Of a stretch of 64,000 nucleotides of DNA, positions 13,725 through 53,286 are shown piece by piece. Location of the stretch: assembly GCA_963924555.1 (NCBI GenBank), contig OZ004584.1:2727001-2791000 (forward strand). Direction: 5' to 3'. Origin of the DNA: Crambe crambe (lineage: Eukaryota > Porifera > Demospongiae > Poecilosclerida > Crambeidae). Made by a program: the position numbers and the translations under genes. The notes beneath the pieces are model-generated. The model made no database searches, was not told the origin of the DNA, and saw only the letters and a program-made list of their open reading frames with translations. Every line of letters starts with the position of its first letter. The stretch's first letter is position 1.

Positions 13725-13869
13725 TCACCATCTGTTGAGAACAAACCTACCACCTATAAGGTATCTAGTCTGATGAAAAACCGAGCTCAAGAGATGTACC
13801 TCAGCGGCCATTTTCTCAAAAATTATGACGTCATCATGTAATACAAAAAGTATTGTAAATGTACGCTGG

Positions 13870-15180
13870 CGTGTAGACTGTACGTACTCCGGTTTGCAGG
13901 AATCTTGCAAAAGCCAGTCGTCAGGCGTCAACCGTAAACTTTTTTTTATATATATAGCCCTCCAGAGGGCCACAGATAGTCTCTGAAAAAGATGACGAGT
14001 AGTTTCTCCCGGTGGTGAACCAGTTCTCTGCCCCAGGAGGCGGCCAATTCTTGAAATGGTAAGGGCAGCCTCCTCACTCCAGCCTCCCAGCGACTCCACC
14101 ACAAGGGGGACAAATGACATCCCCACCGTCTGGCATGCTTCTTGGTGTGCTGCTATCTTTCTCCCCTCACCAACCCTTAAGGCATAGCCTTGATCCTTGG
14201 CAGCACCAGACAGAGTGGAGGTTTGCAGAGTGGAGATAACTGTCACATCCAGGGCAGCTGGAAGGCCCCTGCACCAGTTTGGGAGGAAGATATCAGCTGG
14301 GCGGCTGTTAGTGTCTGGGATGAGGGAAGTGACCTCCTTCCTTGGTGCGAGAGCAGCAGACTGAGCAGCAGAAAAGAGGACATCACATAGGGCATTATGG
14401 CGATATATCCTGTCTCCATTTCCTCCACACCCAACTTGGTGGTCCCCGAAGGGATCCATAATGCCCTCTTTGGAACATGCTGGGCATCTTGAGTTTCCGC
14501 CGAAAACTTCAAGACCAAGCCAGTAGTCCAAACAACAGTGAAACTCCCTGTCATGAAGATGGAGACCAAGTGCAGGAGCTGGGATAACATTCAACCAATC
14601 ACCAGCATGAGGGATGGTAGTTGATAAAGTGAGTGCCCGAGACCGGGTATCAGGAGCTAAGTGCAGCAGAGAATTATATGACGCCTCATCAATCATACGT
14701 GAAAGTGGTCATTGTCGAAGTGGGACATCAATCTCCTCCACTGAGGACCAGTCAGGTTTTTCTGCAGCTAGGGCCAGGTCAGAGACAGCTCTAGCAAGAT
14801 GGGAGGAAAAGGAGGGTTGGTTACGGATTCTGGTTATCAGAGCGCGAGACTGGTCCAGTGAGCTGACATAAGCAGCTGGAGCATGAAGGTTAGCAGATCT
14901 GATATTAAGTCCCCCCAGGGAGCTAGGTAGCGAGGCCTTTTGCCATGCCCATTTGGACAGGGGACCACCAGCTAATTCAAAAAGGCACTCTCTCATCACA
15001 TTATCAAAGGCCATGGTGGCTTGATGAATATACGCTGGAGGGCATGACCTTAAAAGGAAATTGAGCTTTGGGAGGGCTAGGCACGAACGGAGAAGGGTAG
15101 ACTGTATCTGAGAGTCTTCAAGATCCCGTAGTTTGGTCACAGCAGACCTTATCTCTTCAACCCGTTTTGCGTAAACCGAC
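13870..15180 (-). pseudogene. Truncated non-LTR retroelement ORF: RT 3' region plus REL-type endonuclease domain
   Basis: Reads on the - strand from about 15180. One in-frame TGA (about 14709) splits it into a 5' part with 'LPKLNFLLRSCPP' and 'GGLNIRSANLHAPAAYVSSL' and a 3' part with 'CPACSKEGIMDPFGDHQVGC', 'YRHNALCDVLFSAAQSAAL', 'RPADIFLPNW' and 'AALDVTVIS'. The C-x2-C...H-x4-C knuckle followed by RPADI...LDVTV resembles the restriction-like endonuclease domain of early-branching non-LTR retrotransposons (R2-like layout); that assignment is inference. The segment is a high-copy invertebrate repeat. The 5' reverse-transcriptase core is missing. Reading stays open past 13870 to 13725 but loses family resemblance. 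Confidence 0.7.
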
Positions 15181-16080: not shown

Positions 16081-16957
16081 ACCTGAGAGTCAGCTCACTC
16101 ACTCCACTCGCTTGCAGCAATTACCTAAGTGTTTTGAAACCTTGGTAATGGTTGGTAATGATGAAATCGTTGTTTTAATGTAGCAGCTGTTACTGATAGT
16201 CCTGAACATTAGCCCTGAGCTAATTATTCATATATAGATGCCCATTATTCAAGTATTTTATATTTTGCTCCCCATTATTCAAGAGACAGCCCCCTATTAT
16301 TCCAAACAGAGTGATGATAACACTCTGACTGACTGACCAATGTGGTTAGAGACAAGAAGGAAGGATCTTCATTATTAAGGATGTACATTGACAGGATTGA
16401 CAGTCATAACTATTACATAGTTCATTAACTCATCGATTATTGTACTGAAGCATCAAAGATGTCTCAGTTAGAGCCTATTATTCAATTTCTGCCTATTATT
16501 CAAAAAATTATTCCTAACTCAGGCCTACTGAACATTACGTATGTATTACCACTGACTGGGCTCGCTCAGAATATTATAATGGAGAAGTATTCATAAGAGC
16601 ATTGGGAGAACATTACACTGAACCCAAGGGGTCACCCAACTATGTTATCTATTGAGTAGTTGTTTATGCACTGCACACACCCTGTACCATAAATAAAACA
16701 TTACAGCAGTTTACATCAATCCTGTTTGTGAGTAGTAATTGCCTTTGGAAATTGTTCTGATGTGAGACAATCCATTGGGGTAGGAGAGTTACAGCCATGT
16801 GAACTGCACATGTAGCTAACATGGTAAGTATAGTGTAGTCATACATCATAGGCAGGTGACCAGTAGAATTTGCGCATGTGCAAGATAAATTCAAGCGAGC
16901 AAAATATACTGTCATATATACTAATGCAATGGTCTTAGCACTGTCAACCAATCTATA
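16081..16957. other. Intergenic, repeated CCTATTATTCAA words
   Basis: The phrase (C)CCATTATTCAA or CCTATTATTCAA occurs at least five times between 16240 and 16510. Nothing coding was recognised. Confidence 0.45.
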
Positions 16958-17266
16958 ACAAGTAAGGGAAAAAGCATTTCTTGAAATGAAAAAAGATGTA
17001 GGGATGACCACTGCTCAAAAAAGTAAGGAAACAAGAAGGATGAAATGGGATCAATCTTTGTTCTGTACATCCAGCCAACAATCCCTACATATACGTATAT
17101 TACTACATTATAATCTGAAGCTACCCGACGTATATGTAGGGAATGTTGGCTGGATGTACAGAACAAAGATTGATCCCATTTCATCCTTCTTGTTTCCTTA
17201 CTTTTTTGAGCAGTGGTCATCCCTACATCTTTTTTCATTTCAAGAAATGCTTTTTCCCTTACTTGT
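16958..17266. mobile_element. Foldback element, 309 bp, ACAAGTAAGGGAAAAAGC ends
   Basis: Arms of about 130 bp are nearly identical inverted copies (ACAAGTAAGGGAAAAAGCAT... against ...ATGCTTTTTCCCTTACTTGT) around a short centre. Open reading in both directions is a by-product of the symmetry. Same ends as 10009-10415 and 44006-44328. High arm identity implies recent formation. Confidence 0.85.
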
Positions 17267-18190
17267 TCCCGGTCTTTTTTTGGTTTTAGCTATGTATAGA
17301 GTTCGTTCTTCTATGTGTATGCAGGGACAGATGAAAGTTCTCCAATAGTATACCAGCCCAATCATTATCCAGTCAAGGTGTTGTGTTTTATTGAGCCATA
17401 CTTGGAGGTCGAAGATGCTGAAATAGAATCTACCGTGGTGAATCTAAATCCCCGAATCGATACAGTAGTCTATCATCATTATCCAGAGCTAGAGCTAGCT
17501 AGAGACAGCTGAGTAATAATTATGATTTCTAATAATTGGATATTCAAATACATGCGCATGCGTATTATAGAAAAGATGGCTTCCTAATTGAATTGGTCGA
17601 GTGCTGTGCTCCGTAGTGTCTCCTTTTTCATCGAGGATCAACGAGTAGAAAAGATCGTAGTTGGTAGAATTTGGAGTGGATTTGTCCAGAAATTATGGCT
17701 GTAGCTTGAGTGGTTCGAGAGATATGGTTGTCTAAGAAGAAGAACAATAATAATAATAATAGAGAAGAAGAAGAATATAGCGATTTACCTGCTTGCCGTA
17801 TTTCTGAAACGGTAAGCTCCCTGATCCTGAAACTTGGTCTGCACATTGTAGTAGGCTCTAGTAGGCTGGATAATCATTCACAGTAGGTCTAAGTGGGGGA
17901 ACTAGAATTTCACTTTAGTATTAGTCTATGCGGCGCGCGCGGCCGTCCGAGTCATCCCTACATAGAGAGTGCTACCGCACTCTCTGATAACAGTAAACCA
18001 CAGTTGTAGTTTTGATAATACAAGCCATAGCTATGGCCTTATCGTGGTTTGAGAACTACACAACATACAGAGTGGTTACAAACCTGTGACTTACTAAACA
18101 CGACACACATTAATTTTTATTTCACTTGCACTTATATTGAACAGTAACTAAAATATATTCTATTATTGTAGTTATAGCTAGCTATAATAA
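17267..18190. other. Intergenic stretch
   Basis: A 65-codon open stretch at 17315-17512 (+) has no recognisable features. 17964-17985 holds the AGAGAGTGC palindrome beside CATCCCTACAT. The rest is unassigned flank of the SH2 gene's 3' end. Confidence 0.4.
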
Positions 18191-20199
18191 TTACATTAGA
18201 GTGCATTTACTTTTCTTCTCAAGTTTTTGTTCAAAATCTTTTTGCTGCTGTTCTAATTTCTTCTCGAACTCTTGACGCTGTTCTTTGAGCTGTTGCTGAA
18301 AATCTTTCTGCTGTTTCTCCATCATTTCATGTTGTTTATCATACATATTTTTTTGCTGTTCAAAATACTTTTCCTGAATATTCTCATTCTGTTTTATAAG
18401 AGTTTGAACGATCTCGTCCTTTTTTTCTTCTTTGGATTTGAGCTGGTGCTGGTGCTGTTCATGTTGCTCCATTGTTTGTCTTCGTCCATCTCTAGAACAT
18501 GGTCTCCCAATGCTTGATATACTTATAGTATTATTGTGGATTGGATTTTTTTCATAGTGGGAAAGCATGTCATGAATATTTCCAAATGGATTTCCTGTGC
18601 CCTCTATCTCAAAATTGTCGGCACCAATTTTCATTGCAATATGACTGAAGTCAAATGTTCCCTTTTCATTCTTGGTCATTATTGAGAGTACATGCTGTTG
18701 ATAGTTAACGCTAAACCTTGTAAGGTAGCAAGGCTCTCCTTCTCTCTTCAGCTTCATTTCAGCTTCATTTCCAGTTATCATTCCTTGGTAGGATATGTGG
18801 TCAATTTCTTCTGTTATACATGGAGTTACTTTCAGCAACTTTGTCATCTACAGCATGGATTTGATCAATTTACATAATAGCTATAGGTTATCATACATTT
18901 CTTCCAGGTTGCGAAAAAATTGTTGCACCATAATCTTCATCTCTTTCTACGGCGAAGGCATAATGATAACACACTATAGACAGCTAATTGCATGCTCCTA
19001 CCTTGATCTGGTGATCCAAATGGTATAAAGTCATTATGATGACCTTATATGGAATGAATAGATATCATAATAAATTGCTTCCTATAAATGACTCTCCATT
19101 GTGTACTCCCACATTGTATACTACTCTATTATTATAGCCAATTCCATTGCTAAATATACATACCTAGAATTGGTGCTGTTTGAATGTCATTGGTCTCTCT
19201 CACTGGAAATGCTTCATATTACAGATAAGAATTACCACATCGTTTAACAAACTTACTCTGACATCCGTCCTGTCCAAAGTTTGTGGTTCCTAATTAGTGA
19301 TATGTTATGGATTAGTGAGTTCCTATATTCTTAGAGTGCTATCATAAACATACCTGTATTGACACAGTTATAGTCATTGTACATTGAGGTATGACTCATA
19401 GTGTGTGCTTTAGCTTGATGACTGGGTCTTGTTTGCATATTTTGACGACAGTCATCATATTGTTCACCTATGAAGGTGTTCATTTTCAGAGTAATGAGAT
19501 GGATTGGTTGCATGGCTACCAGCATACCACATTCGTATATACATGCATGGAATGCCAAGTATAGTGGTATCAGGTAATCCCAAGACCCCCCAGAGCAATA
19601 ATTTTGGGGACTTTACTTGGGTATAGGGAAACCAAGGGTCATATTGGTGGTACAATTGAAGTAATTAATCTCACATACCCTGATATGATTTTGACTGAGA
19701 CCCTGCATGAGAACTTCCACTTCCTGAGAATATGTATCATCAGAGTTAAGTCCACACTTTGTGCAATACTACTTTGCGTGCATGTATAGCTATGCACACA
19801 GCAATTAAGTCCTCAGTTTAATAATAATAATAGCTAAGAGTCAGTTAATCCAGCTCTTTCACTCCTGTCATTGTGTGTATGCATATAGTATAAAATCTTT
19901 GGCTCTTACCAGTAAAACCAGCTCTTGGTGGCATGCGATGTGAAAAAGTGATAGATTGTCTGCTGTCATGTTGATTGCTAGCATCAGACCGATACTGATA
20001 TCCACCTGTTTATAAAGTACTAATAAACATGATGACATTGTTTATTTATAGCTTATGTGGCTGCAATAATTATTTTATCATTTGATAGCTGTGGCTGCTA
20101 TAGAAAGATTACTAAGGAATTGATCCTAGATATTTATTTACACAGTTAAATACTCACCTATTGAGGGATCAGGTGCACTTCCCACAACGAGCTGCTTTA
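18191..20199 (-). CDS. SH2-domain/coiled-coil protein with C-terminal CaaX box (5' end unresolved)
   Basis: Exons found: 20199-20158, 20005-19910, 19723-19679, 19467-19354, 19289-19257, 19202-19164, 19043-19002, 18946-18897, 18847-18191. The first seven are all phase 1 at both ends; the last two join in phase 0. The 657-nt last exon encodes an SH2 domain ('SYQGMITGNEAEMKLKREGE', 'CYLTRFS' with the expected phosphotyrosine-binding Arg, 'HVLSIM', 'FSHIAMKI', 'IHDMLSHYEKN'), then about 90 residues of Gln/Lys/Glu coiled coil, ending KKSKCTLM-stop, a CaaX prenylation motif with adjacent lysines. The upstream exons encode polar, Tyr-containing segments ('GYQYRSD', 'EQYDDC', 'DEDYGATIF'). Likely a prenylated, membrane-tethered phosphotyrosine adaptor (inference). 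The first coding exon and one possible exon near 19630 are not resolved; exon 19467-19354 could start further 5'. Confidence 0.75.
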
Positions 20200-21409
20200 C
20201 TATAGGCTACTAAGCATGCATATATCTTGCGTTTCGTTTGTTAATGTCATTCTAAACATGCACGCAGCTGACCAGAAACAGGAAAACATGTTGTAGTGGC
20301 CTAAAATGAAATTATCATACCCAGATCACATGATTTTCACCTTTGGTTTCAAGTTCATTCCAGCTTTCAATTGCCATATCGAGCCATAACATCAGGCTTG
20401 CCCCACAATGCACTGGCTAGCTATTACATGCAGCTCCAGCTAGGTGTATCAACTACATAGTCATATGGGTCAACCATGCATGTCTGTATCACTGTCCTAT
20501 AACATTAGGCACTGCCTCACACCTATAAGTACATGACTTACCACCACTTGCCATTATTTACTAAATTAGCTCTGGGCAACCAACAGACTGCATGGTAAGT
20601 TATCCGTCTCACATGTTTGGACTAGTTTCCTAGTTTATTACAGCTAGTATTTGTAGAGATTACGATTCCCGGAAGGGCCTAGGGCCTAGGGGCGTAGCTT
20701 ACTTTACCCCCAGCACGGCTGCTTGCAGAGACTTACAACTCTTGTATGTCATGTCATTTTGTACTGTCACAATCTAGCCTCGTCCCCAGGCCCTCCTAAA
20801 TAATAATTATGATTATTTAAAGGCAGTCAGACCCTACGCGCGAAAAAACGGAAGGGTCTACGTATGAGTGGTGGTGGGCCCCAGGCATGCAGGAGAGTGC
20901 TTTGCGCGCGCATGTTAATGATATTCTTTGTGGGCGTGTAATTAAATTCCTCGCTCTAGCTCTACAGCCTCACGACTTTACCAATAGTGTTATCATTTTA
21001 ATACAGCATGTTCATTGAATTGGAGCAAGTGATGAATGATGAAATGCTGCTGCAAAAGGAGAGGATCTCTGATTAGCCTAACACAAACATTCAAACACCA
21101 TTTTGCAGATCAAAAAGCATTGGACTACAATAGTGCCATGTAGAAGTTGACTTTTTGCAGGTATCGAGCTTGCTACTACAGCTAAAGCTTAACACCAAGC
21201 ATGAACTTTATCTTAGCTCTACCTTTTTGGCATGTTTTTAATCCATTTATCATACCTTGTGTGACTAACAGGACCACTTGCAACAAGCAGAAAGTTAAGG
21301 GCAGGTCAAAACGAAAGCAGTTTCATCTAATTGTGACTAGTCTCGTCCCTGGCCCTCAAGTTTTAATTAGCAGTTTTGTTGCGAATTATAAGAAATTTAT
21401 CAAGTGAGG

Positions 21410-50268: not shown

Positions 50269-51843
50269 CTAGAAAAAATTCTATGACATTGACAACCCAT
50301 GTTGCTCTCAGGCTATTAGTATAGGTAATCACATGCTTTTTCATGCGTATGTATTAATTTTGGGTATCTAATTGCATTCGAAACTGGCTAGGTACTGTAA
50401 TTGCACGAGGTGAAGCACATTGTACATAGAGTAAATGCAGACATGAAACACACTTGATAACAGACCTCTAGAAATTAGACATGCATGATAGCTACGTATA
50501 CACAATAAACATGCAATCAAGTTAGCGAGTCATCTGACCTCTTACATGGTCACAACAATTATGGGCAAGACTGTGATAAAACATTCCCCCAGTCATGTCG
50601 TGAGATTTGAATCTGTGAGGGATTTGTACGGAGATCCATGCCTCTACTGTCTACATGGGAGAGATGTTTCTAATTGTTGTATATGTGGATGCGATGCTGA
50701 TGAGTTGGAAAAGACAACGAAAGGTTGACTGTCATAAAGGAAGCTCTTTCAATTGAGTGAAAGACATGTGAGTAAGGTTGTTCTGAAAGACATGTAAGTA
50801 AGGTTGTTCAAGATCACAAGACTCCATGGAAGGTTTGTGTTTGGATAAGAGTCATACACTGAGGACATCTTGAGATTCGGTTTGTGGGAAGTCCGCTATA
50901 TACCTATCCATTGACCAGCACATAATTATATGTAATGAGTTGTTGTTGTTTTTAATTTCTATATTATTTCTACATGTGTAGTATATATGTTGTGTTTTCA
51001 TGCTATTGGTCTTGTTAGTGTTGCATTACTGTGTGTGTCTGGCCGCTGGGGTAACCATAATAGCTTGATAGCTAGCTAGTTGGTTCACCTTCATGTTATT
51101 TTTGCCAGCATTAAACTTAAACTGAGTAGCTACAAAGAAAAAAAAAGTTTTCTGAGAAAAGCAGCATTATACACTATAGCTATAGCTATAGCTGTGCTGT
51201 ATCTTCCACTATCTCTCAATTACTGTGTGGGCTTTTCAGATGCTGATTGAGGAGGTGACCTGGATGATTGCAAATTTATGTTTTCAAGTTTGTGGAACAG
51301 CGACATAGCTAAATTGGAAAAGCAAGAAGTAGGCTTGTGTGGCTGTATCAACTGACACTCTTGCTAACACTAGCTGCTCAAGAGTCAATATGATCTTGCT
51401 TAACTACAGAAAGAACCAGCAAAGCCAATGGTCATCTTTGAAGACAATCAGTATGGCTAAAGAACCAGTCATTCTAGCTAAGCATATTGCTATAAGTTCC
51501 ATTTCCAGTGAGTGAACATCCTGAAACAATACGTGAGAAGGAAAACCACTTGTCCAGAATGCATTGTATAGCTAGTACTGTCCAGTGATTCCTAGAATGT
51601 TCTAGATGTGTATGCATGTTGATCCTAATTTTAACTCAATTGTTAATTAACACGCAGTTGTTGCTCAATTTGTTGTTACTCAGTAGCTAGTCTCTGTAGT
51701 CAAGTCGCTGTCCTTAGAACTCTCTCTAATAGAATGACACGCTTTTCACTCCTGGTCACTTCGCCCTAGGGTAGAATGACTACAGTTCACTCGATCGGGA
51801 AATTACGTGTGGCGACGCGTATACGCATGCGTAGTTTGTTTCC
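50269..51843. other. Intergenic between P450 copy 3 and the fibrinogen-like gene
   Basis: A 60-codon Cys-rich open stretch (50546-50728, 'CLYCLHGRDVSNCCICGC') is unrecognised and unsupported. CpG-containing sequence near 51810-51840 (GGCGACGCGTATACGCATGC) just before the next start codon may be its promoter. Confidence 0.4.
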
Positions 51844-53286
51844 ATGGTCATAATCATGCATTGTCGCCCGCAATCATCGCGAGTTCGAGTGTTCAGTTAT
51901 ACTGATTACCGATATGAAGTAAGGGATGACATTTCATTGCATTTTATTAGTCGTTGGAGTTTGTGGATAAAGAAGTATAAAGGTTTGTATCTAGTGGGAA
52001 ACATTACTGCATTGCTATGTATTCTAGCATGTACCTTGATACTTTCAGTATGGAATGTAACACAATTAATACAGTTAATGATGCAGCTAAAGGATAATAT
52101 TTCAAATCAGACAGATATTTCAAGTTGGACAGGTATTTCAAATCAGACAAATCGGACAGATATTTCAGGTATTTCAAATCAGACAAATCGGACAGATATT
52201 TCAGGTATTTCAAATCAGACAAGTCAGAGAGGTAATCAGATGAGTCAGATAAATGAGACAGCTTGTTTATCCCAGATCCAAAACATGGTTCAAGAATTGG
52301 AAGTCAGAATACAAAATTATACAGATTTACTAGCTTCTGTATTGGAAGAGAAAATAGACCAACAAGATTATGAGAGAATGATACTACTAGATCCAATTGA
52401 TTACCAGATACACCAGGCTATTGCTATAGTGAACAGTTCAAGAACGAAACTAGGTAGTATCTTGGCTCATGTGAATGGACAAGCTTCAGATAATCCTGCC
52501 GTTTCATGCTCCCACATTTTAGTTATTAATTCCTTGTCTGCATCAGGTTATTACTGGATTAGGTCTCCCAGAAATGGGAGCAGTATACGTGTGTACTGCG
52601 ATTTCGATAGGAAGTGTGGATGTGATGGATCTAATGGATGGACTCGTGTGGGGTTCTTCAACATGTCAGACCCCACCCATACATGCCCACCGAACCTGAA
52701 TACACTCTCTTCACCAGTGAAAACATGCGGGAGGGGGCTATCTGCTGCCAATTTGAGTTGCACTCATATATCTTATGATACCTTGGGAATCAACTATAAC
52801 CGTGTATGTGGACGTATAATAGCTTACCAGCATGGTTCTCTGGAAGGTTTGAAACATCTTGTATCACAAAATGCCACCATTGAAGTCTCGTATTTAAATG
52901 GTATTTCCCTCACTCATGGACCTGATGGATCTCGTAAGCATATTTGGTCATTTGTTGGTGCATTGGGAGAAAATGATAGTTTTCAAGCCAGTCATGTATG
53001 TGAATGCAGCAATAATGATAACTGGCCATTTTCAACACGCTATGTTGGAAGTGACTACTTTTGTGACACTGGTAATCATGGGAATAATATCAGTCACACT
53101 TTTTATCGCGATCCTCTTTGGGATGGCCAAGGATGTGGCATCTCCAGCACCTGCTGCCAGTTCAACAACCCTCCATGGTTTTGTAAGAATATTAGTCAGA
53201 TCACCACTGATAGCTTGGAACTCAGGATTTGCACTGATAATGGTGAAGATACACCAATTCAATTATTAGAGCTCTATGTACAATAG
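51844..53286 (+). CDS. Intronless type II membrane glycoprotein with fibrinogen-like 'DPLWDG' domain (480 aa)
   Basis: Uninterrupted 480 codons. Residues 1-47 are basic and cytoplasmic; 48-70 a transmembrane anchor (LYLVGNITALLCILACTLIL); 85-130 an Asn-rich stretch with a 36-bp coding repeat (ISNQTNRTDISG); 137-215 a probable coiled coil; about 219-480 a cysteine-rich C-terminal domain with 'SGYYWIRSPRNGSSIRVYCD', 'NGWTRVGFFNMSDP', 'NRVCGRIIAYQHGS', 'LTHGPDGSRKHIW', 'VGSDYFCDTGNHG', 'DPLWDGQGCG' and 'CCQFNNPPWF'. The opening resembles the start of fibrinogen-related domains; the rest matches a domain I know as abundant in sponges and cnidarians but cannot name. About ten N-x-S/T sites suggest an extracellular glycoprotein. 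Likely a lectin-like or recognition receptor (inference). A second in-frame ATG is at 51856. The lack of introns contrasts with its neighbours. Confidence 0.85.
   Translation: MVIIMHCRPQSSRVRVFSYTDYRYEVRDDISLHFISRWSLWIKKYKGLYLVGNITALLCILACTLILSVWNVTQLIQLMMQLKDNISNQTDISSWTGISNQTNRTDISGISNQTNRTDISGISNQTSQRGNQMSQINETACLSQIQNMVQELEVRIQNYTDLLASVLEEKIDQQDYERMILLDPIDYQIHQAIAIVNSSRTKLGSILAHVNGQASDNPAVSCSHILVINSLSASGYYWIRSPRNGSSIRVYCDFDRKCGCDGSNGWTRVGFFNMSDPTHTCPPNLNTLSSPVKTCGRGLSAANLSCTHISYDTLGINYNRVCGRIIAYQHGSLEGLKHLVSQNATIEVSYLNGISLTHGPDGSRKHIWSFVGALGENDSFQASHVCECSNNDNWPFSTRYVGSDYFCDTGNHGNNISHTFYRDPLWDGQGCGISSTCCQFNNPPWFCKNISQITTDSLELRICTDNGEDTPIQLLELYVQ
52132..52222 (+). repeat. 36-bp in-frame coding repeat
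   Basis: Two full copies (52132-52167, 52168-52203) and a partial third of a unit starting GGTATTTCAAATCAGACAAA, encoding GISNQTNRTDIS. Each unit adds two N-glycosylation sequons (NQT, NRT), so length change would alter stalk glycosylation. Confidence 0.9.

Follow-up and report, generated by a model that had tools for sequence, protein, structure and literature searches.

A putative membrane-tethered SH2 adaptor with a conserved C-terminal CaaX box in the sponge Crambe crambe

Can an SH2 domain carry its own lipid anchor? This question is raised by a minus-strand gene in a 64,000-nucleotide stretch of the genome of the sponge Crambe crambe (contig OZ004584.1, positions 2,727,001 to 2,791,000; "the window" refers to this whole stretch). 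An initial annotation had placed an SH2 domain, a stretch rich in Q, K and E, and the terminus KKSKCTLM in one last exon. All three, followed directly by TAA, are indeed carried by exon 10 of our gene model, which is predicted to be terminal. Judging from the sequence, the protein is probably a prenylated, membrane-tethered SH2 phosphotyrosine adaptor on a helical stalk. We consider a lipid-anchored phosphotyrosine reader the best explanation because the evidence is good both for the SH2 fold and for a CaaX box that looks selected.

The SH2 domain had been recognised from the FLVRES-like motif CYLTRFS, and structure prediction bears this out. The predicted fold is clear (AlphaFold 2, AF2; predicted local distance difference test score, pLDDT, of 90.7), and the best solved match in Foldseek is the C-terminal SH2 domain of SHP2. 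The βB5-type phosphate-binding Arg is present as R44 of the window protein, within CYLTRFS, and residues Y41, L42, T43 and R44 are invariant across all 29 rows of alignment A2. Profile hidden Markov model searches, proposed as a check in the initial annotation, gave a divided answer: exon 10 lies just under the Pfam cut-offs of PF21990 (24.3 bits, cut-off 27) and PF00017 (20.6 bits, cut-off 21), while the PF00017 cut-off is passed by paralogues on C9 and C8 in the same genome, by L013:1586-2338 and by relatives P0003, P0013, P0029 and P0042. The last exon fits no enzyme family in Pfam over cut-off, so the protein would act as an adaptor, tether or competitor rather than as an enzyme. No catalytic domain was recognised in the 376-residue gene model, for which the Pfam run covered the last exon.

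The terminus KKSKCTLM has a Cys at −4 and an aliphatic residue at a2, and it stands at the exact C-terminus, as originally described. To follow this ending through the family, we compared the exon with its own genome, where at least 38 matches were found at E ≤ 0.001. A first profile (A1), made of 25 own-genome frames, nine of them ending in a CaaX box, retrieved 45 proteins among 2335 candidates from a set of 5.8 billion. Cys lay exactly at −4 in 36 of the 45, all 36 with V, I, L or M at −2. A second profile (A3), built from 18 of these proteins, all CaaX-ending, found 151 proteins at E ≤ 1e-10 among 1066 candidates. We combined the two sets, using the 120 listed matches among the 151, into a union of 141 proteins that counts the window's own (P0001) as a member. 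Within this union, Cys occupied −4 in 120 proteins, 117 of which also had V, I, L or M at −2, together comprising 42 different tetrapeptides. The last residue of these 117 ends was mostly L (83), followed by Q (14), M, S and A (five each) and others (five). At neighbouring positions Cys was rare, except for 12 cases at −5 and six at −6.

As a control, we drew on the 145 PF00017 matches in the whole genome and picked 20 SH2 exons that belong to other families; none of the 19 with an in-frame stop had Cys at −4. Set against this control, the family counts of 36/45 and 117/141 rule out a chance CaaX. The window and the C9 stretch together have 289 frames of at least 80 residues, of which 12 end in a CaaX-like motif: eight family SH2 exons, two coiled-coil neighbours and two others. 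The C8 paralogue, with a stalk of 222 residues compared to the 92-residue helix of the window protein, ends in CALM, its codons TGT GCT TTA ATG corresponding to TGC ACT CTA ATG in the window. In a large part of the family, the CaaX box is thus strongly conserved at the exact C-terminus and looks selected, a conclusion that is well supported because the box is conserved in many relatives and kept in a paralogue with a far longer stalk.

By the usual rule for the X residue, M directs farnesylation and L geranylgeranylation. The genome contains matches to prenylation enzyme families (PPTA at two places, Prenyltrans at three, and ICMT), individual enzymes not being told apart. We therefore propose that the C-terminal Cys would be farnesylated in the window protein and geranylgeranylated in many L-ending relatives, with the lipid holding the protein at the inner membrane face. 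The long α-helical stalk would space the SH2 head away from the lipid, and the head may then dock on tyrosine-phosphorylated proteins at the membrane, as a tether, a scaffold or a competitor for phosphotyrosine sites.

What kind of structure is the stalk? The initial annotation described about 90 residues of Q/K/E coiled coil, of which the length and composition stand: residues 121-212 form a single predicted helix of 92 residues with 24% Q, 18% K and 17% E. The heptad periodicity expected of a coiled coil was not found. This amphipathic helix has a period of about 3.64-3.67 residues (best 3.64), a peak reached in none of 2000 shuffles. Periodic power is 12.13 at 3.667 residues versus 2.78 at the heptad value of 3.5, ruling out a heptad (left-handed) coiled coil; the 11/3 periodicity is instead hendecad-like. 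Near the end of the helix, hydrophobic F and L residues follow one another at spacings of four and seven (residues 183, 187, 194, 198, 205 and 209).

The strongest alternative is that the stalk is a true coiled coil after all, forming a lipid-anchored oligomer whose clustered SH2 heads bind through avidity. Its regular hydrophobic spacing and the shuffling result favour this, as does the fact that hendecad coiled coils exist, and a hendecad oligomer is possible for the window member itself. The family as a whole argues otherwise. In 116 parsed members the linker between SH2 and CaaX spans 9 to 217 residues with a median of 17, and exceeds 40 in 36 of them; these lengths were parsed by a plain text rule, which may set the end of the SH2 domain wrongly in some proteins. 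The helices of relatives P0029 and P0037 are rich in E and R and contain 34+34 and 23+24 i,i+4 charge pairs, respectively, and many such pairs are the signature of a single α-helix. P0031 has a Q/E-rich helix, and other relatives have almost no helix. Some relatives multiply their SH2 domains within a chain instead, with two to five in a single frame; in P0003, P0004, P0006 and P0007, several SH2 domains in one uninterrupted frame precede a terminal CaaX. With linkers of 17 residues or fewer in half of the parsed members, single-α-helix-like relatives and no heptad periodicity, the oligomeric state predicted earlier was not upheld, and we regard an oligomer as doubtful. A spacer between the lipid and the SH2 head is the simplest common role for linkers across the family.

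We also looked at the genomic surroundings of the paralogues. A tandem array on a single strand at C9:1.477-1.614 Mb (C9:1476879-1614463, L009-L023) mixes Death-SH2 genes with SH2-CaaX genes. We counted 28 SH2 exons in it, and one Death-domain exon matched at 22 places; at 20 of these an SH2 exon comes next, its start no more than about 1.6 kb from that of the Death exon. Both Death exons tested exceed the Pfam Death cut-off (25.7 and 29.4 bits, cut-off 22.6). Of the 20 SH2 exons that have a Death exon, one ends in CaaX, compared with six of the eight that lack one (Fisher p 0.0005, relatedness ignored); C9:1534168, one of the two exons with neither, has CTIS in an adjacent frame. Queried with one C9 Death exon, the window and L024-L026 gave no match at E 1, and none was thus found upstream of the window gene. 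On a tree of 66 SH2 domains (115 columns), the CaaX state requires seven changes versus a mean of 19.7 with shuffled labels; 11 of the 63 inner branches are starred, so few forks are firm.

The ends of the Death-SH2 proteins in the array, which include -TTV, -TTL, -TTI, -ITV, -VTL and -ITL, raise the alternative that the tail serves as a switchable address tag, a lipid anchor in some members of the family and a PDZ ligand in others, with the window gene in one of these states. Ten of the 20 ends fit [IVT]T[VIL] and eight fit [ST]x[VILF], the two sets overlapping. Five of those ten, however, have I or V rather than S/T at −2 and are hence not class I, and several ends fit neither pattern. The loose PDZ pattern also fits 25 of the 289 background frames (a count that includes family exons), the paralogues are not independent, and no PDZ partner is known. 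We consider such a switch unlikely. Equally speculative is a tandem phosphotyrosine-reading system in one animal lineage in which labour would be split by C-terminus, with prenylated SH2 tethers lacking Death on one side and Death-SH2 proteins with partly PDZ-like ends on the other. Competition for shared sites could let the anchored SH2s gate membrane recruitment of death- or immunity-type assemblies, stalk length setting their reach.

Other features of these loci were observed alongside. At C9:1547668-1553474 (L016, L017), genes with a coiled coil and another domain also end in CaaX boxes (CILS, CIIL, CKLM), so that, by sequence, the C9 locus collects proteins with predicted prenylation signals of two kinds. 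The second domain of these neighbours had no Pfam match over cut-off, and an early guess that it was a CARD was dropped. Minus-strand retroelement-like frames, with integrase- and reverse-transcriptase-like peptides identified by eye, lie inside the SH2 array (C9:1481654-1485310, L010). SH2 exons of another type are densely clustered at a second locus, C5:1417826-1522148; the exons read begin W-Y-H and are often closely paired.

Is the window gene intact? The model comprises ten exons encoding 376 residues, starts at 20554 and has nine introns, all GT-AG and with phases that join (Table 1). The span 18191-20199 given for the gene in the initial annotation takes in nine of these exons and leaves out the putative start-codon exon. 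At the nearest paralogue, C9:1500202 (86% identity), splice signals and exons 1, 6, 7, 8 and 9 are recognisable, exon 4 partly; exons 2, 3 and 5 were not found there and are therefore tentative. The first Met of exon 10 is probably internal rather than a start, because the C8 paralogue has Val at this position. Between the window and C9 copies, the ratio of nonsynonymous to synonymous substitution rates (dN/dS) is 0.41 overall, 0.30 in the SH2 part and 0.77 in the stalk, from few differences (17 synonymous and 35 nonsynonymous in total). KKSKCTLM shows no amino-acid change and one silent change between the two. A fragment at C9:1532593-1532736 also carries KKSKCTLM, and was dropped as evidence of retention since a recent wreck would keep the box regardless.

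The family is one of tandem duplicates, and four copies elsewhere look broken (C9:1532593, C9:1534168, C8:7269580 and C8:7274240). The window copy, too, could be decaying and unexpressed, having arisen by duplication of the C9 gene, and the three exons missing from the C9 copy would fit this. Its ten model exons are, however, free of stops and frameshifts, its introns keep their splice sites and its overall dN/dS is that given above, which makes decay improbable. Least probable of all is an ordinary soluble SH2 adaptor with an unprenylated CTLM: some C-x-x-x ends do stay unmodified, but here differing tetrapeptides hold Cys at −4 and an aliphatic residue at −2, and the C8 paralogue keeps the box despite its changed stalk length. 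A eukaryotic family is likelier than a bacterial or viral origin, both of which we rejected: 26 stretches in GTDB genome contigs fit the patterns of a 9-row alignment and two in IMG/VR fit those of an 18-row alignment, none of them confirmed as relatives.

Table 1. Predicted exons and protein features of the SH2-CaaX gene, in window coordinates.
Feature	Position	Strand	Remarks
Putative exon 1 (start codon, MASG)	20542..20554	-	GT donor; C9 copy identical over ATG, coding bases and donor (match begins C9:1498686)
Putative exon 2	20158..20199	-	Open, AG/GT, phase fits; convincing C9-copy counterpart not found; tentative
Putative exon 3	19910..20005	-	Open, AG/GT, phase fits; weak similar peptides only at C9 and C8 (E 25-37); not found in C9 copy; tentative
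Putative exon 4	19679..19723	-	Open, AG/GT; partial counterpart in C9 copy
Putative exon 5	19354..19467	-	Open, AG/GT, phase fits; convincing C9-copy counterpart not found; tentative
Exon 6	19257..19289	-	Exon and flanks conserved in C9 copy; in-frame 9-nt difference
Exon 7	19164..19202	-	Conserved in C9 copy; peptide RETNDIQTAP
Exon 8	19002..19043	-	Conserved in C9 copy; peptide NDFIPFGSPDQ
Exon 9	18897..18946	-	Exon, acceptor and donor conserved in C9 copy
Exon 10 (last): SH2, helical stalk, CaaX box, stop	18191..18847	-	AG acceptor immediately upstream; 218 aa; TAA
SH2 domain (exon residues 13-119)	18491..18811	-	
CYLTRFS, phosphotyrosine-binding strand with βB5-type Arg	18710..18730	-	
Stalk, single predicted 92-residue helix, 11/3 hydrophobic periodicity	18212..18487	-	
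CaaX box CTLM, preceded by KKSK	18194..18205	-	CaaX ends also in paralogues and relatives

Several observations weigh against a prenylated, membrane-tethered SH2 adaptor. Our confidence is lowered because the second search leans towards CaaX ends (every row of its profile has one, and not all of its proteins were used) and because the binding Arg is not universal. Arg is present in 24 of the 25 rows of alignment A1, C9:1494863 having His, and the 161 motif matches in the 141 relatives have R in 145, H in seven, Y in seven and C in two, so that 16 carry H, Y or C. The motif is absent from 24 of the 141 relatives, three of which have Cys at −4 but no aliphatic residue at −2, and only seven of the 28 SH2 exons in the C9 array end in CaaX. 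The control exons may be internal, in which case their stops are not true C-termini and the control is weakened. Both Pfam SH2 scores of exon 10 fall short of the curated cut-offs, by 0.4-2.7 bits. Purifying selection is modest between the window and C8 SH2 parts (dN/dS 0.67), and the stalk value against the C9 copy is built on four synonymous changes. Finally, a candidate N-terminal phosphotyrosine motif in exon 9 was rejected: its Tyr is His in the C9 copy and hence not conserved, and N-terminal phosphosites are therefore unsupported.

Elsewhere in the window, a near-perfect inverted repeat at 16957-17267, whose 140-nt arms are complementary at 99% and enclose a 31-nt loop, lies some 0.9 kb downstream of the SH2 gene and resembles a small mobile element. 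Two adjoining long frames of 327 and 156 residues on the minus strand (13725-15179), in a GC-richer stretch and with no Pfam match, are possibly derived from a mobile element. On the plus strand, a 483-residue frame at 51835-53286 has an N-terminal stretch that by eye resembles a transmembrane segment, and it matches PF01410, the fibrillar collagen C-terminal domain, below threshold (22.9 bits, cut-off 26.2).

How does this family relate to known proteins? In the titles and abstract openings that our searches of the open-licence PMC literature listed, we found no description of an architecture that joins SH2 to CaaX or prenylation. The proteins appear to form a large SH2-stalk-CaaX family, a variant of known SH2 adaptors with no earlier description found in that literature. 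In the available parts of the sources, early animals are described as having Rho CaaX boxes (PMC7600811), and SH2 and CaaX occur in separate Legionella proteins (PMC7542358). The sponge Amphimedon has a large lineage-specific expansion of TRADD-N/NCOA6 adaptors, some of which have SH2 or PDZ as one of their alternative C-terminal domains; no SH2-CaaX architecture was seen in the available part of that paper, whereas the array described here pairs Pfam Death with SH2 (PMC8195603). In the SH2-CaaX family, stalks range from almost none to some 200 residues, and a single frame can hold as many as five SH2 domains. Such a family would widen the known design space of phosphotyrosine signalling in animals and would offer a natural parallel to SH2 constructs engineered for membrane targeting. 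Because its genes are paired in tandem with Death-SH2 genes, a connection of tyrosine phosphorylation to death-domain signalling becomes open to test. An SH2 adaptor is normally brought to the membrane by a phosphorylated receptor that it binds; one with its own CaaX signal would already sit there.

By sequence as well as by structure, the best match of the window SH2 is the C-terminal SH2 domain of SHP2 (PTPN11), with which its Arg, the Ser two residues on and the His align. SHP2 carries a phosphatase domain and, to our knowledge, has no CaaX box, whereas the window protein stops right after the stalk and its last exon has no protein tyrosine phosphatase (PTP) match in Pfam. SAP and EAT-2 (SH2D1A/B) are short, cytosolic SH2 adaptors for which we know of no lipid signal or stalk. 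Src-family kinases are lipid-anchored phosphotyrosine readers with an N-myristoyl anchor and SH3 and kinase domains; the window protein differs in its C-terminal CaaX box and in that no kinase was seen in the last exon, the part covered by Pfam. Ras and Rho small GTPases likewise end in basic residues followed by a CaaX box at the exact terminus, the anchored head here being an SH2 domain instead of a GTPase domain.
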